Of a DNA stretch of 16,247 nt, positions 1,601-11,918 are shown piece by piece (within the stretch, counting starts at the first letter, position 1; every line of letters begins with the position of its first letter). The notes beneath the pieces were generated by a model, which worked only from the letters and a program-made list of their open reading frames with translations, made no database searches and was not told where the DNA came from. The DNA is taken from contig JAGYOI010000009.1 of the NCBI GenBank assembly GCA_018399395.1, positions 1 through 16,247 on the forward strand. Reading direction: 5' to 3'. The stretch is from Prolixibacteraceae bacterium (lineage in GTDB: Bacteria > Bacteroidota > Bacteroidia > Bacteroidales > Prolixibacteraceae). Position numbers and translations under genes: made by a program.

Positions 1601-2812
1601 TTAATCAATAGCCCCTACTTCGGCAAAAGCCTGGTCTTCCTCGGGCACATCATCTGCAAGGTCAACCAATGGTTTGTTATTGCTTTTTTCAACTTTATTC
1701 TGGTAACTAACCCTGAGTATACACCCAAAAGCGGTAGCTGTAAAAATGGTTGATGTTCCCCCCATACTCACCCATGGTAGTGTTTGTCCGGTAACCGGAA
1801 GTAAGCCAACTGCAACCCCCATATTTGTCATAGCCTGCAAAAGCAACATTGACGTGAGCCCGGCAACCATGAACGCCGGGAATGTTCGTTTACTTTGATT
1901 AATAATCACCCCCGAACGGGCTGCAATTATTACATATCCCAATACAACCAAAAAGCTGAACCAGCCATATTCTTCAATCAAAATGGCAAAAATAAAATCG
2001 TTGAAAGCCGCAGCCATGTGATTACGTACTTCACTACCACCGGGGCCTGTACCAAAACGCCCCCCGTTATAAATTGCCATTTCAGCATAATCGGCCTGTG
2101 TCATGCCAATTTCAGAATTCGGGTCCCCGTAAATATAGCGGTCGATACGTCCGCGAACAGTATCAATACGCCCTAGGTCGACATGCGATGCCAACACATA
2201 AAACAGAGCCACAACTGCCACACCTGCACCAACCGTGGCCAGCAGGTATTTAATGGGCACACGTCCTACAAACATTACAATCATAACCGTTGCAAATAGA
2301 ATTGCGGCAGTTGAAAAGTTTGCCATTGAAATTGCCAGACAAGTAACCCCACTAACTCCAAGCACCCAATAAAAAGTACGCCGTGATGGTTTATTCTCCT
2401 GATCCTGGTTATTGGCCAGCATCCGCGAAACAAATAATATCAGCGATATTTTAGCAAGCTCGGCCGGCTGGAACGATATTGGACCGAGGCTAAATGTACG
2501 CCCTGTAGCTTCAGCCCCAATATTCAACACCAATGCAATAGCGATAAAAATTAGCGAAACAATTAGCATCAAAGGTGAGAAAATCGACATAAACTTCACA
2601 GGTATAACATTAACAATTAACACGATAACACCAAACCCAATTAGCGTCATCCCAAATTGCTTAAACAGGTAGAAGAAAGTATTTCCTTCCATTTCACGGT
2701 ATGCCAGCGATCCCGTTGAACTGTATACTACCAGCAATGAAAACATAGACAACAACACCAGGACAAACCATATTACCCTGTCACCTTTTAATATGCTAAA
2801 CAGTTTGTTCAT
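1601..2812 (-). CDS. ftsW: Cell division SEDS glycosyltransferase FtsW
   Basis: Polytopic SEDS protein that polymerises lipid II into septal glycan, working with the class B PBP encoded upstream (FtsI). It has 403 residues and about ten hydrophobic segments; the first is at about 13-31. Family marks include FQPAE at 114-118 (the SEDS QPxE motif), the large extracytoplasmic loop at about 210-270 ending in NDFIFA (271-276), and the C-terminal signature GLLPVTGQTLPWVSMGGTS (about 336-354). The last 35 residues are acidic (LADDVPEEDQAF) and cytoplasmic. RodA has a similar fold, but the location between murD and murG makes FtsW the call. The gene starts 2 bp after the murD stop, so the two are probably translated together. 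Confidence 0.96.
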   Translation of the reverse strand: MNKLFSILKGDRVIWFVLVLLSMFSLLVVYSSTGSLAYREMEGNTFFYLFKQFGMTLIGFGVIVLIVNVIPVKFMSIFSPLMLIVSLIFIAIALVLNIGAEATGRTFSLGPISFQPAELAKISLILFVSRMLANNQDQENKPSRRTFYWVLGVSGVTCLAISMANFSTAAILFATVMIVMFVGRVPIKYLLATVGAGVAVVALFYVLASHVDLGRIDTVRGRIDRYIYGDPNSEIGMTQADYAEMAIYNGGRFGTGPGGSEVRNHMAAAFNDFIFAILIEEYGWFSFLVVLGYVIIAARSGVIINQSKRTFPAFMVAGLTSMLLLQAMTNMGVAVGLLPVTGQTLPWVSMGGTSTIFTATAFGCILRVSYQNKVEKSNNKPLVDLADDVPEEDQAFAEVGAID

Positions 2813-2814
2813 AT

Positions 2815-4155
2815 TTACAAGTTCCTTACTTCTTCTTTAAACATTTTACCACGCTCTTCATAATTATTAAACAGGTCGAAACTGGCGCAAGCCGGCGACA
2901 ACAATACAACATCGCCCTTTTCAGCCATGAAATAAGCTGATTTCACAGCATGTTGCATGCTTTCTGTTTCAACTATATCGGGTACTACACCGGCAAAAGC
3001 ATTTACAATTTTAGTATTGTCCTTACCCAGGCAAATTATTGCACGCACTTTCTCTTTAACCAGCTCAGTCAGTTCGCTGTAATCGTTACCTTTATCAACG
3101 CCCCCTACAATCCACACCGTAGGTTTGGTCATCGACTCAAGTGCATACCAAGCAGAATTGATATTAGTAGCTTTCGAATCATTTATAAATTCGATGCCGT
3201 GCACCGAAATATATTTTTCAAGACGATGTTCAACACCTGCAAACCCGGTAAGGCATTCGCGTATGAACTCATTTCGTATATCCGCAACCTTGCCAACAAT
3301 AGCTGCTGCCATTGAATTGCAAAGGTTATGCTTGCCTTGAAGGGCTAAATCGTAAATCGTCATTTCAAATTTATTTTGGTTGTAATTCACTATCATTTTA
3401 TCGTTAATCACGTATGCGCCATTTTTTGTTAATATCCGGCTGAATGAAAATGGTGCCAGCATTTGCGTTGCTTCACGTGTTTTTATCTCTCTCGCAATTA
3501 GTTCGTCATCAGCAAAGAAGATGAATACATCATTGACCCTTTGATTTTGAATAATCCTAAACTTCGAATTGATGTATTCCTGCATGTTATTGTTGTAACG
3601 GTCGAGGTGATCGGGCGTGATGTTCATCAAAACAGCGACATCAGCTTTAAATTCGAACATCCCGTCAAGCTGAAAACTACTGAGCTCAAGCACATAATAC
3701 GAATAATCCATGGTTGCCACCTGGCGTGCAAAACTTTGCCCGATGTTACCAGCCAGCCCAACATTATGTCCGCCAAGTTTCAACATCTCATAAATCATGG
3801 TAGTTGTGGTGGTTTTACCATTGCTACCTGTTACGCAAATCTTTTTTGCCGATGTATATCGCCCGGCAAATTCTATTTCAGAAACCACAGGGATATTTTT
3901 ATTCTTCAGTTCACGAATGATTGGTACGTTATCGGGGATGCCCGGACTTTTAACCACAAGCGATGCATTTAGTATAAGCCCAGTTGAGTGACGGCCTTCT
4001 TCAAAGGCAATTCCAGCATCGTTGAGCTCATCGCGGTAATTGTCTTTCAGGGCTCCCATGTCAGAAACAAAAACCTCAAAGCCTTTGGCCTTACCGAGTA
4101 AGGCAGCACCCACACCGCTTTCGCCTGCACCTAATATGACTAATCGCTCGCTCAT
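2815..4155 (-). CDS. murD: UDP-N-acetylmuramoyl-L-alanine--D-glutamate ligase MurD
   Basis: ATP-dependent cytoplasmic ligase that adds D-glutamate to UDP-MurNAc-L-Ala. 446 residues, normal length. The N-terminal UDP-binding domain begins with VILGAGESGVGAALLG (about 6-21). The central domain has the P-loop GSNGKTT at 110-116 and NITPDHLDRY near 178-187. The C-terminal domain has HRLE (310-313), NDSKATN (325-331) and LSPACASFDLF (419-429), all Mur ligase signatures typical of MurD. The ATG is 5 bp after the mraY stop and the stop is 2 bp before ftsW. No odd residues at the catalytic positions I can identify. Confidence 0.98.
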   Translation of the reverse strand: MSERLVILGAGESGVGAALLGKAKGFEVFVSDMGALKDNYRDELNDAGIAFEEGRHSTGLILNASLVVKSPGIPDNVPIIRELKNKNIPVVSEIEFAGRYTSAKKICVTGSNGKTTTTTMIYEMLKLGGHNVGLAGNIGQSFARQVATMDYSYYVLELSSFQLDGMFEFKADVAVLMNITPDHLDRYNNNMQEYINSKFRIIQNQRVNDVFIFFADDELIAREIKTREATQMLAPFSFSRILTKNGAYVINDKMIVNYNQNKFEMTIYDLALQGKHNLCNSMAAAIVGKVADIRNEFIRECLTGFAGVEHRLEKYISVHGIEFINDSKATNINSAWYALESMTKPTVWIVGGVDKGNDYSELTELVKEKVRAIICLGKDNTKIVNAFAGVVPDIVETESMQHAVKSAYFMAEKGDVVLLSPACASFDLFNNYEERGKMFKEEVRNL

Positions 4156-4160
4156 TCTTT

Positions 4161-5414
4161 TTATCGTACTTTCAATGTTACAATACTAATTACAGCCAGT
4201 AATATGGCGATAATCCAAAATCGTGTTACTATTTTAGATTCGTGATACCCTTTTTTCTGATAATGATGGTGTAATGGCGACATCAAAAAAATTCTTTTTC
4301 CCTCGCCATACTTTCGTTTTGTATGCTTGAAATAGCTCACTTGCAGCACTACCGACAAATTTTCGGCTACCAGCACCCCGCAGAATATTGGTATCATTAT
4401 TTCTTTACGGATAATAATAGCAAACACGGCAAGAATACCTCCAAGAGCAAGACTACCGGTATCGCCCATAAATACTTGTGCCGGAAACGCATTAAACCAA
4501 AGGAAACCAACGGTAGCTCCGATAAACGCGGCCACAAACACTGTAAGTTCACCTATATTGGGGATATACATTATATTGAGATAATCGGCCAAAATCACGT
4601 GACCACTCACATAGGCCAAGATCCCCAGCGTGAGCCCGCTTATTGAGGTTGTTCCTGCAGCCAGCCCGTCGAGTCCATCGGTTAGATTGGTGGCATTTGA
4701 AACAGCTGTGATAATGAAAGTTATTACCAGAATATAAAAAATCCAGACTGCAATATCCTCCCAGCTATCGGGCAGGAAACGAACGAAAAAGCGGTAATCA
4801 AGTTCCTGGTTTTTAACAAAGGGGATAGTAGTACGTGTTGACTTTACATCTTCGGTTTTATAATGCACTACACGCTGACCGGTTTGGTTGTCAACCACAA
4901 CTTCGGTTATATATTTGCCATCGGCATCTTTCACCTTTTCACGCACTACAACATCGTCGTTGAAAAAGAGCGTAGCACCTACAATCAAAGCCAATGAAAC
5001 CTGCCCCAGAATTTTAAATTTCCCTGCAAGCCCCTCTTTATCTTTTTTAAATACTTTTATATAATCATCAACAAACCCGATAGTCCCGAGCCATACAGTT
5101 GTAATAATCATTAACCAGATGTAGATATTATCGAGCCTTGCAAACAATAATGTAGGGATAAGAATGGAAGCCAAAATAATTATACCACCCATTGTTGGTG
5201 TCCCTTTTTTTTGCAACTGCCCTTCGAGCCCCAGGTCGCGAACCTCTTCGCCAATTTGTTTGCGTTGAAGTAAACGGATAATTTTTTTACCAAACACCAA
5301 CGTAATAATGAGCGACAAAATTACCGATGCCGCTGCCCGAAACGAGATATACTGCATAATCCCAAGTCCCGGAATATCTAAATGCTCTATTAATTCATAC
5401 AAGTAGTACAACAT
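4161..5414 (-). CDS. mraY: Phospho-N-acetylmuramoyl-pentapeptide-transferase MraY
   Basis: Integral membrane enzyme that moves phospho-MurNAc-pentapeptide from UDP to undecaprenyl phosphate, forming lipid I. Catalytic and binding motifs are complete: KKGTPTMGG at 69-77, the aspartate pair in GFVDDYIK (D116-D117), [15 protein letters not shown] at 240-254, FMGDTGS at 315-321 and [10 protein letters not shown] at 380-389. At 417 residues it is longer than the usual 320-360. The excess is a hydrophilic stretch at about 152-208 between two membrane segments, where shorter MraY proteins have a brief extracytoplasmic loop. Such a loop is, to my knowledge, common in Bacteroidota MraY. The gene lies 11 bp after murE and 5 bp before murD; murF, which sits here in many bacteria, is absent. 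Confidence 0.98.
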
Positions 5415-5425
5415 GTTATTTTAAT

Positions 5426-6883
5426 TTAAATGATGCCAAAAGCTTTTTGTACTTCTTCCTTATCGTCGAAATGATGCCTTACACCTTTAACCTCCTGATA
5501 GGTCTCGTGCCCCTTACCGGCAATAAGAATAATATCGCCCGATTGTGCAAGCATGGCTGCTGTTTTGATAGCTTCACGCCGGTCGACAATAACCAGTGTG
5601 TTTTTTTTGCTTAATGCATCAATTCCCGGTTTCATATCTTCAATAATATCTTCAGGCTTTTCGCTACGTGGATTATCGGAGGTTAGGATAATTTTATCGC
5701 TATACTTACATGCGATTGCTGCCATTTCAGGACGCTTAGTTTTATCACGATCGCCACCGGCGCCTACAATGCAAATCAAATTCTCGTTGCGGGTCCGTAC
5801 TCCGGCAATTGTTGACAATACATTTTCAAGCGCATCAGGTGTGTGGGCATAATCAACAATGGCAAACTTCTCGTCGGGAGAACGGACCACCTCAAAACGC
5901 CCAGCTACCGGCTTAAGCTTACTGATTTCAACCAATACCGCTGTTTGTTCAAAACCGAGCAACAATGCTGACCCATAAACGGCCAAAAGATTATATGCGT
6001 TAAATTTACCTACGAAATGGGTCCATACTTCTTTCCCGTCAAAAGCCATCAGGGTACCATCGAAGAATGATTCTAAAATTTTATTTTTAAAGGTTGCCAT
6101 ACTTCGCAACGAATACGTTTCTTTTTGTGCATTAGTATTTTGAAGCATCACTAAACCGTTCTTATCATCGACATTTGAAAGGGCAAACGCTTCAGGTTTA
6201 AGCCTGTCGAAGAATTGCTTTTTCGCTTTTATGTATGCACTGAATGTTTTGTGATAGTCGAGATGGTCGTGCGAGATATTGGTAAAAACAGCGCCATCAA
6301 AATCAAGACCTGATATACGTTCCTGATCAATTGCATGGGAACTAACTTCCATAAAACAATAATCACAACCACTATCGGCCATTTCCTGCATCAACCGGTT
6401 AAGGGTTAGCGGATCGGGTGTGGTATGCGACGAAGGGTATTCTATATCGCCAACCTTGTAAGTAATTGTTGAAATGAGCCCGGCTTTTTGCCCAATATTT
6501 TGGATCATTTGGTGTAAAAGAGATGCAATGGTTGTTTTACCATTTGTTCCGGTTACACCCACAAGCTTCATCCTTCTGGATGGATAACCATAAAATGCAG
6601 ATGCCACATGCCCCAGTGCAACAGCCGTATTTTCAGTTTTCATGTACGTTACCCCTTCGGTTATTTCATCCGGAAGGGTTTCACATAAAACAGCAATGGC
6701 ACCTGCCTCAACGGCTTTTTTAATAAACTGGTGCCCGTCGGTAATGGTCCCTCTTACAGCAACAAACAATGACCCCTTGCCTACTTTGCGTGAGTCAAAT
6801 TCAAGGCCTGTAATCTCCACTTCTTTATTTCCAACTACCTCTGATACTGTAAATCCATTCGTTAATTCGTTCAAATTAATCAT
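5426..6883 (-). CDS. murE: UDP-N-acetylmuramoyl-L-alanyl-D-glutamate--2,6-diaminopimelate ligase MurE
   Basis: Adds the third stem-peptide residue to UDP-MurNAc-L-Ala-D-Glu in the cytoplasm. 485 residues, normal length. The first domain has LEFDSRKVGKGSLFVAVRG (about 27-45). The ATP-binding P-loop is GTNGKTT at 112-118, SSHTTPDP lies at about 151-158 and the central-domain motif NISHDHLDYH at about 202-211. The C-terminal domain has DYAHTPD (344-350), GAGGDRDKTKRPEM (about 374-387) and DNPR at 403-406. DNPR is the known signature of enzymes that take meso-diaminopimelate rather than lysine, so I infer DAP-type peptidoglycan. The ATG follows the ftsI stop by 37 bp, the second longest gap of the dcw run. 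Confidence 0.98.
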   Translation of the reverse strand: MINLNELTNGFTVSEVVGNKEVEITGLEFDSRKVGKGSLFVAVRGTITDGHQFIKKAVEAGAIAVLCETLPDEITEGVTYMKTENTAVALGHVASAFYGYPSRRMKLVGVTGTNGKTTIASLLHQMIQNIGQKAGLISTITYKVGDIEYPSSHTTPDPLTLNRLMQEMADSGCDYCFMEVSSHAIDQERISGLDFDGAVFTNISHDHLDYHKTFSAYIKAKKQFFDRLKPEAFALSNVDDKNGLVMLQNTNAQKETYSLRSMATFKNKILESFFDGTLMAFDGKEVWTHFVGKFNAYNLLAVYGSALLLGFEQTAVLVEISKLKPVAGRFEVVRSPDEKFAIVDYAHTPDALENVLSTIAGVRTRNENLICIVGAGGDRDKTKRPEMAAIACKYSDKIILTSDNPRSEKPEDIIEDMKPGIDALSKKNTLVIVDRREAIKTAAMLAQSGDIILIAGKGHETYQEVKGVRHHFDDKEEVQKAFGII

Positions 6884-6920
6884 ACATTCTTGTTCAACTG
6901 TTGCAATTTGTGTTCACTAT

Positions 6921-9035
6921 CTATCCCAGGTCGAGATATACCAACTGACCTTCGCGGCAGTTTGCACCCGGCAATGGAAATTGCTTTCGCACTTTCCCCA
7001 CGCCTTTAAGTTTCGACTTCATGCCTGATCTTTCGATAAGATAGATGGCATCGGCAGCCCCCATCCCAACAACATCAGGCATTTTGTATTTCTCAACATT
7101 ATGTGGTTCAAGGCCAACCCGATTATTATTTTCGTTCACTTTCACCCAGTCGGCCTTTTCAACGTTCCCTGAATAGGGGATATCTAATTCATTAAAAACT
7201 TTCAAAGTATTGGTTGCATCACCATTTAAAAAATCCGGAACCTGATTCTCACCATCATTGGTGTTATTTGCAATATCAAGCGACAAATCGGTGGTATAAA
7301 CACAGTCGGCAATCTCCCTGAAAACAGGACCGGCTACAGTACCCCCGTAAAATGAACCTTTTGGTTCTGACACAACCACTATACATGAATATTTCGGGTT
7401 ATCGGCCGGAAAATACCCGGCAAAAGATGCCCTGTATTTATGATGCGCATACCCCAGTTCTGTATCCATAATTTTAGCTGTTCCGGTTTTCCCAGCAAAC
7501 GAATACAATTTGCTTTGCAAACTTCGGGCAGTTCCATTTGTCACCACACCTTCAAGCATTTCCTGTAACTTATCCAGGGTTTCGTTTGAGCAAATTGAGT
7601 TACGCATAACCTCTGGCTTAAATTTTTTCATAGTCCTGCCATTGGCCTGCACTTCCTCAACAAACATTGGCTTCATCATTTTGCCATCGTTGGCAACTGC
7701 ATTATAAAATGACAGCACATGTAAGGGCGAAAGGTTTACTTCGTATCCGTGAGCTAAATATGCCAGCGATGTCCCCCACCAGTTTTTATCGGTGGGGTAC
7801 TTTACCCACGGCTCGGCCTCACCCCTGAAATCAAGCCCCAAAGGCCGGTTCAACCCCAGGTTGTAAAGCCTGTCGACAAACTCGCGCGGGCGGTCGCCAT
7901 AATGTTCCTGTATTATTTTGGCAACTCCCACATTTGAAGAGTGCTCAAATATTTCTTTAACGGTTTTCTTGCCGTGTTCCCCATAACCATAATCACTGTC
8001 GTAAATTGTACGGTCGTAAATCTTCCACTTTCCATCCTCGGTGTCATACACATCAGAAGTGTCGATTTTGGCTTCATCAAGTGCAACCATCATTGAAATT
8101 AATTTGAAAGTTGAACCCGGCTCGTTGCTCCCCTGGTGACCAATGGCCCAGTTATAAGTTTCGGCATAACCGCCATTGTGACTTGTCAGGTTTGATATCG
8201 CACGAACCTTGCCTGTTTCAACTTCCATTAGCACAGCCGTTCCATATTCAGCCTCGCTTTTCACCAACTGCTTACGCAAAGCACTCTCAACCACATCCTG
8301 CAAATAAATATCGATGGTAGTAATTACATCATTTCCGTTTTCGGGCTCTACTGTACTTATGTTAACCCAGCGCCCCGAGAGGTTTTGCCGTACAGCAAGT
8401 CCTTCTTCCCCACGCAAATATCCTTCAAACTGAGCTTCGATTCCCGAAATTCCAATACTCCCAAGCATTCCACCATAAGCCCCTTTGTTCATCAGGCCAA
8501 TCGTACGATAAGCGAGATTACCATGAGGCGTAAACCTGATGTATTCCTGCTCTGCAATAAATCCCCCACGGTATGCTCCACGCTTAAAAATAGGAAACTC
8601 TTTTATCCGCTGCAGTTCATCGTAGTTCACTTTACGCGGATGAACAAGGTGATAGCGCTCACCATTTCGGTAAGCCTTTTGTAATTGCGACTTAAACTGC
8701 CAGGCTGAACGATCGGTAAATATATTGGAAAGCTTAGCCGCCAAAGCCCCTACATTCTCGTCAAACACCTCGCCTACGCCGGGAGCTGCCAAATCGAATC
8801 GCAGTTCGTAAAACGGAACTGAAGTAGCTAATACACGGCCACTTGAACTGCAAATATTCCCGCGGTCGCCATAAATAACTTCAGTTTTATTTTCAAGGGT
8901 TTGCAATTTGCCTTCCCATTTTTCGCCGGTTGACATTTGTATATAAACAATACGCCCCACTACCATAAACGAGAACACCAACACCAATGCCAGTATTACC
9001 GAATAACGAGCTAATATGATACGACGTAGATCCAT
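6921..9035 (-). CDS. ftsI: Septal class B penicillin-binding protein FtsI/PBP3 with C-terminal PASTA domain (Spo5D-like)
   Basis: Monofunctional DD-transpeptidase that cross-links septal peptidoglycan, anchored in the inner membrane and partner of FtsW. 704 residues. One N-terminal membrane segment is at about 8-30 after a short basic tail. A PBP dimerisation domain follows (about 50-220; GDRGNICSSSGRVLATS at 56-72). In the transpeptidase domain the active serine is S308 in STFK (308-311), SSN is at 366-368 and KTG at 516-518. A linker (about 580-648) leads to one PASTA repeat (KMPDVVGMGAADAIYLIERS, 651-670, to the end), a module expected to contact muropeptides or stabilise the protein. Length and PASTA tail resemble Spo5D/PBP2x more than E. 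coli FtsI. Starts 3 bp after ftsL. Confidence 0.96.
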   Translation of the reverse strand: MDLRRIILARYSVILALVLVFSFMVVGRIVYIQMSTGEKWEGKLQTLENKTEVIYGDRGNICSSSGRVLATSVPFYELRFDLAAPGVGEVFDENVGALAAKLSNIFTDRSAWQFKSQLQKAYRNGERYHLVHPRKVNYDELQRIKEFPIFKRGAYRGGFIAEQEYIRFTPHGNLAYRTIGLMNKGAYGGMLGSIGISGIEAQFEGYLRGEEGLAVRQNLSGRWVNISTVEPENGNDVITTIDIYLQDVVESALRKQLVKSEAEYGTAVLMEVETGKVRAISNLTSHNGGYAETYNWAIGHQGSNEPGSTFKLISMMVALDEAKIDTSDVYDTEDGKWKIYDRTIYDSDYGYGEHGKKTVKEIFEHSSNVGVAKIIQEHYGDRPREFVDRLYNLGLNRPLGLDFRGEAEPWVKYPTDKNWWGTSLAYLAHGYEVNLSPLHVLSFYNAVANDGKMMKPMFVEEVQANGRTMKKFKPEVMRNSICSNETLDKLQEMLEGVVTNGTARSLQSKLYSFAGKTGTAKIMDTELGYAHHKYRASFAGYFPADNPKYSCIVVVSEPKGSFYGGTVAGPVFREIADCVYTTDLSLDIANNTNDGENQVPDFLNGDATNTLKVFNELDIPYSGNVEKADWVKVNENNNRVGLEPHNVEKYKMPDVVGMGAADAIYLIERSGMKSKLKGVGKVRKQFPLPGANCREGQLVYLDLG

Positions 9036-9038
9036 ATA

Positions 9039-9377
9039 TTATTTGTCAACTTTTATTTTTACAGGCGGAACAGAGGGCTGCTTAAGCCCCAATCCTTTTT
9101 GATTTACACTTTTCAGAATTTCAGAATAACGGCTCATGTTCATAAGCTCAGCCTCAATTGTGGAAGATTCTGAACGCAATTCTTTCACTTCTTCCTGTAC
9201 CTCTACAAGTTCCCGCAATATCTTCTCACCCTTGTACCGGTTCGATATCATTACGAGCCCCATTAAAACAAGCATACCTACAAAAGGCAACCAGCGTACC
9301 ACTTCTTTATTCAGAAAAACGCTACCGAGAAGCACATCCCGGAAACCAACTTTTTTATGTTTGCCTTTTTTTGCCAT
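9039..9377 (-). CDS. ftsL: FtsL-like cell division protein
   Basis: Small bitopic membrane protein of the divisome, expected to act with FtsB- and FtsQ-type partners in recruiting and activating FtsW-FtsI. 112 residues: a very basic cytoplasmic tail (MAKKGKHKK), one hydrophobic segment at about 30-46 (LPFVGMLVLMGLVMI) and a heptad-like extracytoplasmic part rich in Glu, Leu and Val (about 52-95; ILRELVEVQEEVKELRSESS), a probable coiled coil. Sequence similarity within the family is poor, so the call rests on size, topology and its place between rsmH and ftsI, where ftsL sits in other bacteria. Its ATG shares one base with the rsmH stop (TAATG), which implies coupled translation. Confidence 0.85.
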   Translation of the reverse strand: MAKKGKHKKVGFRDVLLGSVFLNKEVVRWLPFVGMLVLMGLVMISNRYKGEKILRELVEVQEEVKELRSESSTIEAELMNMSRYSEILKSVNQKGLGLKQPSVPPVKIKVDK

Positions 9378-10276
9378 TATATTTTTTCAGCTACCCTTAA
9401 TTTTGCACTTCGTGCCCTTGAATTCATTTCAATTTCTTCCTCGCCGGGCACAATTAACTTATCAACGACTTTAAACTTAGTTTTTGGATTACCATAAAAG
9501 TCTTTTTCAACATCTTTATCGAACCCGCCGCGTTGAAAAAAATTTTTAACAAGGCGGTCTTCGAGCGAATGATAGCTAATGACAACAAAACGCCCACCTG
9601 ACCTTAAAACCTCATGCGAGTCGATTAAAAGATTGCGGAGGACATCAATTTCGCCATTCACCTCGATACGGAGTGCCTGAAATACTTTTGCCAAAAACTT
9701 TGATGATGCCTTTTGTGGAACGAGCTTTTCAAGCACTTCTTTCAAGCGGGTTGTTGTTTCAACCGGTCTTTCTTCGCGCGCTTTAACAATTTCGGCCGCA
9801 GCCCTTCGTGCACTTTTCAGTTCGCCATACTGCCTAAAAATCCGAATCAAATCAGCTTCATCGTATTCATTTACAACTGTTGCAGCTGTTAACCCACCGG
9901 TTTGGTTCATACGCATATCCAGCGCGCCATCAAACCGGAACGAAAATCCACGCCCGGCTTCATCAAAATCGTGCGATGAAACCCCCAGGTCGGCTAAAAT
10001 GCCATCAACCTGGTCAATTCCATAATACGCGAGAAAGTTTTTCAGGTATTTGAAATTATGCTGAACAAATATCAACCGCTCATCGTCGGGGACATTTGCC
10101 AAAGCATCCACATCCTGGTCGAATGCAATAAGCTTACCGGTAGTAAGCTTATCAAGTATTTTTGCTGAATGACCGCCACCACCATAGGTTACATCAACAT
10201 ATATGCCATCTGGCTTAATCGCAAGACCTTCGATGCATTCGTTTAATAAAACCGGTATGTGGTAGTCTGTTGTCAT
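9377..10276 (-). CDS. rsmH: 16S rRNA (cytosine(1402)-N4)-methyltransferase RsmH (MraW)
   Basis: SAM-dependent enzyme that methylates N4 of C1402 in the ribosomal decoding centre. 299 residues, normal for the family. The N-terminal YHIPVLLNECIEGL (5-18) is the conserved RsmH opening. The SAM-binding loop is VDVTYGGGGHS at 27-37, followed by AFDQDVDAL (51-59), ILADLGVSSHDFDEAGRGFS (93-112) and ISYHSLEDRLVK (233-244). The conserved opening starts at residue 5, which supports the ATG at 10274-10276. That ATG lies inside one unit of the degenerate repeat array that fills the gap to mraZ. The stop overlaps the ftsL start by one base. Confidence 0.98.
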   Translation of the reverse strand: MTTDYHIPVLLNECIEGLAIKPDGIYVDVTYGGGGHSAKILDKLTTGKLIAFDQDVDALANVPDDERLIFVQHNFKYLKNFLAYYGIDQVDGILADLGVSSHDFDEAGRGFSFRFDGALDMRMNQTGGLTAATVVNEYDEADLIRIFRQYGELKSARRAAAEIVKAREERPVETTTRLKEVLEKLVPQKASSKFLAKVFQALRIEVNGEIDVLRNLLIDSHEVLRSGGRFVVISYHSLEDRLVKNFFQRGGFDKDVEKDFYGNPKTKFKVVDKLIVPGEEEIEMNSRARSAKLRVAEKI

Positions 10277-10368
10277 TTGTCAATTTGTCATTTAGTCATT
10301 AGTAAATTGGTTCCCGATGTAAAATCGGGACTGGCCGCAAAGCGTCCAGCATTGGTCATTGGTCATTG
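10272..10368. repeat. Degenerate 7-8 bp tandem repeat array interrupted by two hairpins, mraZ-rsmH junction
   Basis: On the plus strand the left half reads GTCATTT (10272), GTCAATTT (10279), GTCATTTA (10287), GTCATTA (10295) and a decayed GTAAATTG (10302). The right half has two exact GTCATTG units (10355 and 10362). Between them lie two back-to-back inverted repeats. The array reaches into both genes: the rsmH ATG (10274-10276) is formed by the first unit and the mraZ stop TGA (10356-10358) by a right-hand unit, so the last residues of MraZ (PNDQ) are repeat-encoded. The layout (short direct repeats around paired hairpins) looks like a small intergenic repetitive element, but no transposase or clear target duplication is visible. 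Confidence 0.7.
10312..10349 (-). other. Two adjacent RNA hairpins in the mraZ-rsmH intergenic spacer
   Basis: Hairpin 1 (10312-10330) has perfect 7-bp arms TCCCGAT/ATCGGGA around a 5-base loop. Hairpin 2 (10331-10349) follows directly with 8-bp arms CTGGCCGC/GCGTCCAG, one mismatch and a 3-base AAA loop. In the operon transcript (minus strand) hairpin 2 comes first. Neither is followed by a U run, so this does not look like an intrinsic terminator. Plausible roles are mRNA processing or partial polarity between mraZ and the enzyme genes, or a repetitive element without function in the operon. Confidence 0.65.
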
Positions 10369-10823
10369 GGGTTCATGCCGCCGCCGAGCAATTCCTCAAA
10401 CAATGCCGGGTATTCTTCGTCGGGCAACATGGCAGCTTCGTATGCCTTGGCCTCCCAAAGCCTTATACGGTCGCCCTGACCGGTAAATACTACATCGCGG
10501 TCGATTCCCATTTTATCGAGAAACGAATTGGGTATGTTAACCCGGCCATTTTCAGCTACATTTGTTTTTACAAAACTTTGGTAAAATTTATCGAGAAGCC
10601 GGCTATGCCGCGGATCATTCGGGTTTAAACGTGAACGGATAAATGCCAGGCGTTTCTCCCATGAACTTAGCGGATAGAGGTTAAGGCATTTTTCATAAGG
10701 ATCAATTTCAATTGCAAAAACCCTGTTGAAAGCCTCCCCCATCTCACGCTTATAGGCAGCAGGAAGCACTACGCGCCCCTTGTCGTCTACAGTTGCATGA
10801 TATTGATTAGAGAAATCCGGCAT
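10356..10823 (-). CDS. mraZ: Transcriptional regulator MraZ
   Basis: DNA-binding regulator of the dcw operon, usually repressing its own operon, and the normal first gene of the cluster. From the ATG at 10821-10823 the product has 155 residues with the two SpoVT/AbrB-like halves of the family: VDDKGRVVLPAAYKREMG (12-29) and ENGRVNIPNSFLDKMG (91-106). The DxKGR/xxGR loops belong to the DNA-binding face in known MraZ proteins. A TTG 24 bases upstream (10845-10847) is in frame but lies inside the predicted promoter and adds residues before the conserved region, so I chose the ATG. There is no clear Shine-Dalgarno sequence. The C-terminal PNDQ is encoded by the repeat array in the spacer. Confidence 0.96.
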   Translation of the reverse strand: MPDFSNQYHATVDDKGRVVLPAAYKREMGEAFNRVFAIEIDPYEKCLNLYPLSSWEKRLAFIRSRLNPNDPRHSRLLDKFYQSFVKTNVAENGRVNIPNSFLDKMGIDRDVVFTGQGDRIRLWEAKAYEAAMLPDEEYPALFEELLGGGMNPNDQ

Positions 10824-10844: not shown

Positions 10845-10875
10845 CAAAAATAAAACTTATTCCACTTTATTACAA
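10845..10875 (-). promoter_or_regulatory. Predicted promoter of mraZ and the dcw operon (Bacteroidota type)
   Basis: On the minus strand a perfect -7 element TATTTTTG (TAnnTTTG) lies at 10852-10845. A -33 element ATTG (core TTG at 10875-10873) is 20 bp upstream; the known Bacteroidota spacing is about 19-21. Transcription would start near 10838-10840, giving a leader of about 15 bases before the ATG. The -33 core falls in the one degenerate unit of the TGGAA array, so the promoter is interleaved with the presumed MraZ operator. Confidence 0.65.
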
Positions 10876-10910
10876 TTTTATTCCACTTTATTCCACCCCG
10901 TTCCACCTTA
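10860..10910 (-). promoter_or_regulatory. Predicted MraZ operator: phased TGGAA direct repeats
   Basis: Read on the minus strand, units GGTGGAA, GGTGGAA, AGTGGAA and AGTGGAA have TGGAA cores at 10905-10901, 10895-10891, 10885-10881 and 10864-10860. Core-to-core distances are 10, 10 and 21 bp; a decayed unit (core at 10875-10871, TTGTA) fills the double gap, so five units are phased on one helix face. Known MraZ operators are short direct repeats of this type upstream of mraZ (TGGGN with 5-base spacers in E. coli, AAAGTG-type in mycoplasmas). Three boxes lie upstream of the -33 element and one between -33 and -7, a position expected to block RNA polymerase. Confidence 0.75.
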
Positions 10911-10922
10911 AATTTCAAAAAA

Positions 10923-10945
10923 CTTATCAACAATTTGTTTATAAG
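10923..10945. promoter_or_regulatory. 23-bp near-perfect palindrome in the divergent control region
   Basis: Arms CTTATCAACAA and TTGTTTATAAG match at 10 of 11 positions around one central T. With a 1-base centre it cannot form a good hairpin and looks more like a binding site for a dimeric regulator. It lies 18 bp beyond the outermost TGGAA box and about 90 bp before the -33 of the rightward promoter. Which protein would bind is unknown. Confidence 0.4.
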
Positions 10946-11081: not shown

Positions 11082-11918
11082 ATGGCAAGGAACAAACAGG
11101 GGAACAGTCTGGAGCCAATTGATATTAAGGAACTTGTGCGGAGCAAAAACGAAAAACTCGCACACAGGCTTCCTAAATTTGTATATCGTTGGCTCGAAAA
11201 GCTTCTACACCTTGATGAGCTGAATGATTTTCTTCAACAACATGGCCATCTTAAAGGACTTGAATTTGTTGAAGAAGCCATAAAATTGCTCAACATCAAG
11301 TTCAATATTGAAGGTGAAGAAAACCTGCCTTCGGACGGCCGCTACATGTTTGTTTCGAACCACCCGCTTGGAGGGCTTGACGGGGTACTTCTCCTGAAAA
11401 TTTTAAACGAAAGGTTTGGGAACACCCGCGTTTTAATAAACGACTTTTTAATGGCGGTAACCCCGCTAAGAGATTGGTTTGTACCAATAAACAAAATTGG
11501 TGGACAGGCCCGCGATTCCATAAAACATGTTGACGAGCTATATGAATCGGACGATCAGGTTTTGATATTCCCGGCCGGGTTATGCTCACGTAAAACAAAT
11601 GGGGTTATAAAAGACCTGGAATGGCAAAAACACTTTGTGCAAAAGGCGGTACAATATAAATTAGACATCGTACCCATCCACTTTGGAGGCCGCAACACCA
11701 ATCGGTTTTACAACCTTGCCAACTTACGCAAGTTCCTGAAAATCAAATTCAATTTTGAAATGCTGTATTTAGTTGACGAAATGTTTAAACATAAAAATAA
11801 AACCTTTACCATACGTTTTGGAAAGCCCTTACCTTTTACTAAATTCGATAAAACAAAGCGACCTAAAGAATGGGCACAGTATATAAAAGAACAAACATAC
11901 GAGTTGGCAAAAAAATAG
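11082..11918 (+). CDS. glsA: PlsC-family O-acyltransferase, probable glycine lipid synthase subunit GlsA
   Basis: Membrane-associated lysophospholipid-type acyltransferase of 278 residues. The family core is visible: acyl-acceptor motif SNHPLGGLDG at 92-101 (the catalytic His and Asp in the variant seen in Bacteroidota), then FPAG at 163-166 and PIHFGGRNTNRFY at about 198-210. There is no clear membrane-spanning segment. In Bacteroides an O-acyltransferase of this type (GlsA) acts with the N-acyltransferase GlsB to make glycine lipids; the GlsB-like gene follows 59 bp downstream, which is the main reason for the name. Paired enzymes of similar type (OlsA/OlsB) make ornithine lipids elsewhere, so the amino acid headgroup is inferred. 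Gene order here is GlsA then GlsB. Confidence 0.7.
   Translation: MARNKQGNSLEPIDIKELVRSKNEKLAHRLPKFVYRWLEKLLHLDELNDFLQQHGHLKGLEFVEEAIKLLNIKFNIEGEENLPSDGRYMFVSNHPLGGLDGVLLLKILNERFGNTRVLINDFLMAVTPLRDWFVPINKIGGQARDSIKHVDELYESDDQVLIFPAGLCSRKTNGVIKDLEWQKHFVQKAVQYKLDIVPIHFGGRNTNRFYNLANLRKFLKIKFNFEMLYLVDEMFKHKNKTFTIRFGKPLPFTKFDKTKRPKEWAQYIKEQTYELAKK

Follow-up and report, generated by a model that had tools for sequence, protein, structure and literature searches.

The window analysed here, a 16.2-kb contig (16,247 nucleotides in full) from a Prolixibacteraceae genome that is 56.7% complete and distributed over 508 contigs, raises the question of how these bacteria control their dcw operon. The first gene of the operon, mraZ (10359..10823, minus strand), specifies a protein of 155 amino acids that matches the Pfam MraZ model in two stretches (3.8e-16) and, by sequence, the solved MraZ structures 1n0e, 9qlr, 9qlg and 9sx6; the ATG at 10823-10821 is most probably its start codon, and the MraZ of the closest named relative, a Prolixibacteraceae MAG (L036), is 97% identical. 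Downstream on the same strand (1601..10276) lie genes that were recognised by Pfam as encoding MraW, an FtsL-like protein, a PBP transpeptidase, a Mur ligase, MraY and FtsW. We take murD to be among them, and murG and murC presumably carry the cluster on to position 3. Gene order and strand suggest that the dcw genes are transcribed as one unit from the mraZ promoter. The intergenic region upstream of mraZ is common to a divergent acyltransferase gene (11082..11918, plus strand; Pfam Acyltransf_2, 5.3e-70). We propose that positions 10845-10944 within it form a composite control region in which autorepression by MraZ is combined with an input from DnaA, a statement that, taken as a whole, we consider reasonably likely.

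Directly upstream of mraZ, which heads the dcw genes, the minus strand carries five units in the direction of the gene: the outermost predicted MraZ box GTGGAA (10901..10906), two further GTGGAA boxes (10891..10896 and 10881..10886), a decayed unit TTGTAA (10870..10875) and a last GTGGAA box (10860..10865), followed by the -7 element TATTTTTG of the TAnnTTTG type (10845..10852). The TTG of the decayed unit (10875-10873) is a candidate -33 element with 20 nt between it and TATTTTTG (10852-10845), and thus, by consensus position, a promoter of the Bacteroidota type overlaps the array, one MraZ box lying between -33 and -7. The first-pass annotation had described both the repeats, as TGGAA units, and the overlapping promoter, and rightly so; the spacings it gave (10/10/10/11) have the same values as those found, which towards mraZ are ordered 10/10/11/10. 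When the 150 bp upstream of mraZ were shuffled, four TGGAA in register arose in none of 5,000 dinucleotide shuffles, and GTG in three of the four 10-bp slots, as in the window, in none of 2,000 shuffles. A two-unit pattern on its own is less remarkable over the whole window (2 matches against 0.17 expected, with at least 2 in 4 of 200 shuffles).

The AAAGTGGAAT units of the window conform to the formula (AAAGTGKN3)3 published for the MraZ operator of Mollicutes (PMC5282649, PMC8475190), and a GTG core has been reported for Mollicutes, B. subtilis, E. coli and Burkholderia (PMC5282649, PMC7761207). The likeness to the Mollicutes operator, as that formula gives it, comprises the GTG-core direct repeats, the 10-bp step and the position upstream of mraZ, whereas the array of the window differs in being laid over a Bacteroidota -33/-7 promoter, in having one TTG unit and in being preceded by boxes of the DnaA type. 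Very probably, then, the repeats serve the dcw operon as its MraZ operator, as had been suggested before, and as such an element of an already known kind. Because of the position of the array and the known MraZ systems, we propose autorepression: MraZ made from the first gene would bind the GTG array, cover the -33 element and the stretch up to the -7, and block the polymerase.

The upstream regions of mraZ in relatives bear on this assignment. They were collected for 42 loci from Prolixibacteraceae, 18 from other Bacteroidales and, phylum-wide, 43 of 70 loci (L073-L142), the other 27 having been omitted as the script found no ATG start. A second mraZ-like gene of G014 (L010) and an mraZ lacking a start (L052) gave no usable upstream; L049-L051, L053 and L054 repeat the genomes behind L036-L040, L002 repeats L001, and of the 18 order loci one fell short of 150 bp, so that the slot count covers 17. 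GTG occupied at least two of the four 10-bp slots in all 42 Prolixibacteraceae upstreams, in 16 of 17 from other Bacteroidales and in 40 of the 43 usable ones phylum-wide, against 8.4%, 6.6% and 8.3% of shuffles, respectively. At least three slots were filled in 29, 10 and 25 upstreams, respectively, as compared with 0.1-0.3% of shuffles. When periods of 8-13 were compared, GTG chains of at least three units appeared with period 10 only. The promoter recurs as well, in that 40 of the 42 family loci have TAnnTTT[G/A] about as far from the ATG; a recognisable -7 was missing in 7 of 60 loci. Relative to the -7, the GTG starts of the family have peaks at -54, -44, -34 and -13; between the last two, at -25/-24, the peak is weaker and split. 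The arrays, their spacing and their conservation can thus be read directly from the DNA.

The core of the repeat had to be redefined. The first-pass annotation had put forward TGGAA and had proposed an alignment of mraZ upstreams from related Bacteroidota, and although 10-bp repeats over the promoter indeed recur in such an alignment, TGGAA is present in only part of the Prolixibacteraceae. What the relatives have in common is GTG; the fourth position takes G, T, A and, rarely, C, and the bases after it vary. A further suggestion, that one unit was given up in favour of the -33 element, holds in part. In the slot 26-20 bp upstream of the -7, 18 of the 40 family members with a recognisable -7 have GTG and 18 have TTG only, and TTG stands exactly 20 nt from the -7 in 14 of 40; in the two slots further upstream GTG occurs 34 and 35 times and TTG without GTG 0 and 1 times (n=40). 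On the other hand, TTG-only units are also found 8 times in the slot nearest the -7 and 3 times in the outermost slot, and the TTGGAA of L040 satisfies both readings. These counts support the trade-off as a tendency of the family, not as a rule.

In part of the phylum the array is placed differently. A TTGAC[A/T] hexamer of the -35 type was observed in 20 of the 43 phylum-wide mraZ upstreams (L075, L080, L083, L101, L134 and others), and in 18 of these 20 a GTG array of at least two slots begins 10-38 bp downstream of the hexamer, therefore at or after the -10, as in E. coli and Burkholderia. In Burkholderia cenocepacia the MraZ boxes are four 7-nt repeats with 3-nt spacers (PMC7761207); with this species and with E. 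coli, as far as these are described there, the Bacteroidia share a dcw promoter that contains repeats of a GTG motif, but their array lies upstream of the -7 and not downstream of the -10. It would seem that the array has shifted with respect to the promoter. A search for further MraZ targets with the strict pattern AGTGKN5AGTGKN5AGTGK matched in 3 of 30 genomes, twice at mraZ and once (G008:C3) in a tract of overlapping repeats, and missed most of the mraZ arrays too, so that other targets may exist. The first genome-wide GTGGAA match in the genome of the window (G000:C246) was rejected as an MraZ array, being a 12-bp tandem repeat with the wrong period; it consists of 3-4 tandem copies of GTGGAATAAACT, 12 bp each, towards the end of an ORF (L072:about 660-710).

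Just upstream of the array lies a second element, which escaped the first-pass annotation as it falls just outside the interval given there. It is a convergent pair (10924-10944) of probable DnaA boxes, both predicted and of the TTATNAACA type, with TTATCAACA on the plus strand (10924..10932) and, after a gap of 3 nt, TTATAAACA on the minus strand (10936..10944), so that the mraZ strand reads TTATAAACA-AAT-TGTTGATAA (10944-10924). Base 6 is A in both boxes, where the canonical DnaA box TTWTNCACA (PMC7561715) has C. In the 42 family upstreams, AACA pairs were found 34 times at a distance of 11 (0.6 in shuffles) and 12 times at a distance of 22 (0.4 in shuffles), and the AACA-type units upstream of the array of Prolixibacteraceae read TT(A/T)(T/C)N(A/C)ACA. 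Taking [AC]AC[AG] as the unit, 17 loci have a longest 11-bp run of three, 11 loci one of two, and 14 loci a single unit; under the stricter [AT]TNAACA, 6 loci reach three units and 11 reach two. Boxes with this spacing, TTWTN[A/C]ACA, were also observed upstream of a conserved gene of ~180 aa in two genera (L173 and L174, from G013 and G033; L196, from G008).

Of the upstream regions, 32 of the 42 from the family, 12 of the 18 from the order and 5 of the 43 from the phylum-wide sample carry TTATNAACA within 220 bp of mraZ; among control intergenic stretches, 21 of 434 contain it. For family and order together (44 of 60 against 21 of 434) Fisher's test gives 2e-33, a P value that is too small, as related genomes are not independent; 10 of the 42 family upstreams have no TTATNAACA. 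In an unbiased count TTATNAACA ranked first of 4,219 gapped 9-mers in the family upstreams and second of 2,137 in those of the order, where the first overlaps the junction between box and array. In the upstream interval used for the family, the wider order showed no excess of AACA (25 against 25.6), as its single box lies closer to mraZ than the interval counted. Convergent pairs were present in 8 of 42 family and 0 of 18 order upstreams and at 3 places in 1,372 kb of background; genome-wide, they were found at 16 sites in 38 genomes (1 in the control), of which only that of G056 was recognised as an origin. A strict two-box pattern gave 10 sites genome-wide in 20 genomes, one of them at mraZ, which is barely above the 5 of the control. 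The region is AT-rich and single-pattern matches are few across the window, which could be taken to mean that we are dealing with chance similarity in AT-rich intergenic DNA. Given the shuffle and genome-background controls and the conservation of both elements across families, the probability of this is practically negligible.

In a part of the other Bacteroidales the box and the array are joined. The pattern TTATNAACA-NN-GTGK-N6/7-GTG was recovered at 66 sites in 64 of 295 Bacteroidales genomes and 46 of 178 genera, against 9 sites for the reversed pattern as control. Neighbouring genes were checked for 30 of the 66 sites, and 28 of these were directly upstream of mraZ; the loci of the other two contain no mraZ. 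From the start of the box to the first GTG is a step of 11 bp, as it is from one tandem box to the next. None of the five family genomes among the 295, that of the window included, has the exact composite; these use 11-bp runs or convergent pairs. Among the 18 order loci the exact 2-nt gap was seen in 9 and a 3-nt gap in two more. The fixed distance to the mraZ array argues against the boxes serving the divergent acyltransferase (11082) instead of mraZ; this assignment is suggested by the common intergenic region, in which the boxes are ~140 bp from the acyltransferase start codon, and we regard it as very improbable.

The same fixed step to the first GTG (exact gap in 9 of 18 order loci, 3 nt in two, and 64 of 295 order genomes) might be explained if MraZ itself, or a partner of MraZ, made an additional contact with the 9-mer beside the array. 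In all 66 composite sites base 5 of the box is confined to T or C, whereas at oriC it may be any base; this would fit in with such a contact and at the same time tells against the DnaA reading. The boxes of the Prolixibacteraceae, however, stand apart from the GTG array, in their 11-bp runs or convergent pairs, and a GTG array was not noted at oriC, which this 9-mer marks as well. Contact by MraZ is therefore improbable to our mind, if somewhat less so than control of the acyltransferase, and DnaA is the binder that we prefer.

The evidence for a link with the replication origin is as follows. No box cluster was found beside dnaA at 30 dnaA loci. In a relative with a single-contig genome (G036), GC skew changes from -0.08 to +0.18 at 2,396,700, with smaller fluctuations further out, in an intergenic region that holds six TTWTN[A/C]ACA boxes within ~265 bp; a seventh lies a little way into the ORF that follows. 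This conserved ORF of ~1,100 aa, the first 331 aa of which gave no Pfam match, has orthologs in 20 of the 31 other genomes searched. The skew changes from negative to positive next to this ORF in all 8 genomes probed (G030, where the flip is weak on the left side, G015, G023, G032, G010, G008, G027 and G002, the last belonging to the genus of the window). At the resulting 21 family loci, nine skew-checked genomes among them, TTATNAACA was present in 18 and was the most enriched of 5,834 gapped 9-mers. It occurred 40 times, as compared with 4 for TTATNCACA, and base 6 of TTWTNxACA was A in 63, C in 8, T in 5 and G in 2 cases. The convergent pair was found at 4 of 21 loci with a strict and at 11 of 21 with a relaxed pattern.

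The three loci that lack TTATNAACA are those of G013 and G033, which belong to one genus, and of G019, which is outside the skew-checked set. In G033 the ~1,100-aa gene is at 3.156 Mb, whereas negative skew persists to 3.301-3.311 Mb and gives way to positive skew from ~3.315 Mb; since it flips away from the gene, the gene is not an origin marker there. L173/L174 were dismissed as origin candidates, the skew of G033 flipping elsewhere, and so was L176, at which no clean skew flip was seen in G018. Beyond the Prolixibacteraceae an origin was located in one genome of another family (G056), where the skew goes from -0.107 to +0.195 at six TTWTNAACA boxes and one TTATTCACA, including a convergent pair. 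This origin is 4.5 kb away from the ortholog of the ~1,100-aa ORF, therefore the gene is no guide there either. At the orthologs in ten Bacteroidales genomes outside the family, where the gene may likewise be no guide to oriC, TTATNAACA was found in none. The origins located by GC skew are at L178:549-1088 and L247-L266 for Prolixibacteraceae and at L305:1330-1850 for G056.

One and the same gapped 9-mer is thus the most enriched both upstream of mraZ and at oriC in Prolixibacteraceae, an identity that is a plain property of the sequences. From this co-occurrence we infer that TTATNAACA is a lineage-specific DnaA box, in which base 6 of TTWTNCACA has changed to A and the other fixed positions match. 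The DnaA protein itself points in the same direction. P423 and T435 are listed among its base-reading residues (PMC7561715, section 13), and in the alignment to E. coli DnaA both are changed to A or S at 30 of 30 dnaA loci, that of the genome of the window included. Conceivably, the array is a plain MraZ operator and the 9-mers are read by another oriC-binding protein, such as a nucleoid or segregation factor, without DnaA control of dcw. The A at base 6, where the canonical box has C, and the convergent pairs at other loci would suit such a protein. Nevertheless, the 9-mer fits the DnaA box at all other fixed positions, tops the enrichment at oriC and comes in 11-bp steps, and it is the base-reading residues of DnaA that are changed, which makes this reading unlikely, even if it is the most serious of the alternatives. 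That DnaA reads the TTATNAACA boxes and acts on the dcw promoter we hold to be fairly probable, and MraZ and DnaA probably share this promoter.

Mechanistically, DnaA would bind the convergent TTATNAACA pair just upstream of the array, and from these adjoining boxes it may help or hinder MraZ or act on the polymerase from upstream. The amount of free ATP-bound DnaA varies with replication initiation. Free DnaA, changing as replication is initiated, would in this way act on dcw transcription, either alone or together with MraZ. That MraZ and DnaA are the binders we infer, as we do the coupling and the sign of the regulation. In its widest form the proposal is that the Bacteroidales DnaA box shifted from TTATNCACA to TTATNAACA along with the changes of P423 and T435, and that it is bound beside MraZ at a fixed step, coupling replication initiation and dcw transcription across much of the order; for this extension we see the chances as evenly balanced.

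The two components have precedents of their own. DnaA binds the ftsL promoter of Bacillus subtilis (PMC8203912, PMC11019786), which likewise places DnaA at a promoter for a division gene of the dcw type; binding was demonstrated in that case and is predicted here, and MraZ sites and a changed box are not mentioned in the parts of those accounts that concern ftsL. At the mioC promoter of E. coli an MraZ site overlaps a DnaA box (PMC4446571), which resembles the situation described here in that both kinds of site occur at one promoter. As described there, however, mioC neighbours oriC and lies outside the dcw operon, and its sites overlap, whereas those of the Bacteroidales adjoin. No report of Bacteroidota MraZ operators, or of DnaA at mraZ, was found in the open-access literature searched. 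Considering that MraZ operators and DnaA at division genes are known separately, it is the DnaA-MraZ composite that would appear to be new. If the box has indeed shifted, origin finders that seek TTATNCACA would miss most of the DnaA boxes of this lineage. Moreover, a DnaA-type box fixed beside an MraZ array in many Bacteroidales genera provides a defined promoter that is testable by a few base changes, and suggests a direct link between the start of replication and the making of division proteins.

No MraZ match was obtained for 8 of 61 relatives (G004, G018, G037, G038, G047, G056, G057 and G059), among which G018 is a single-contig genome and G056 the one with an origin of the new type, and in some of the eight mraZ may have been lost. 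Conversely, G014 carries a second MraZ-like gene (L010, G014:C110) in addition to its dcw copy.
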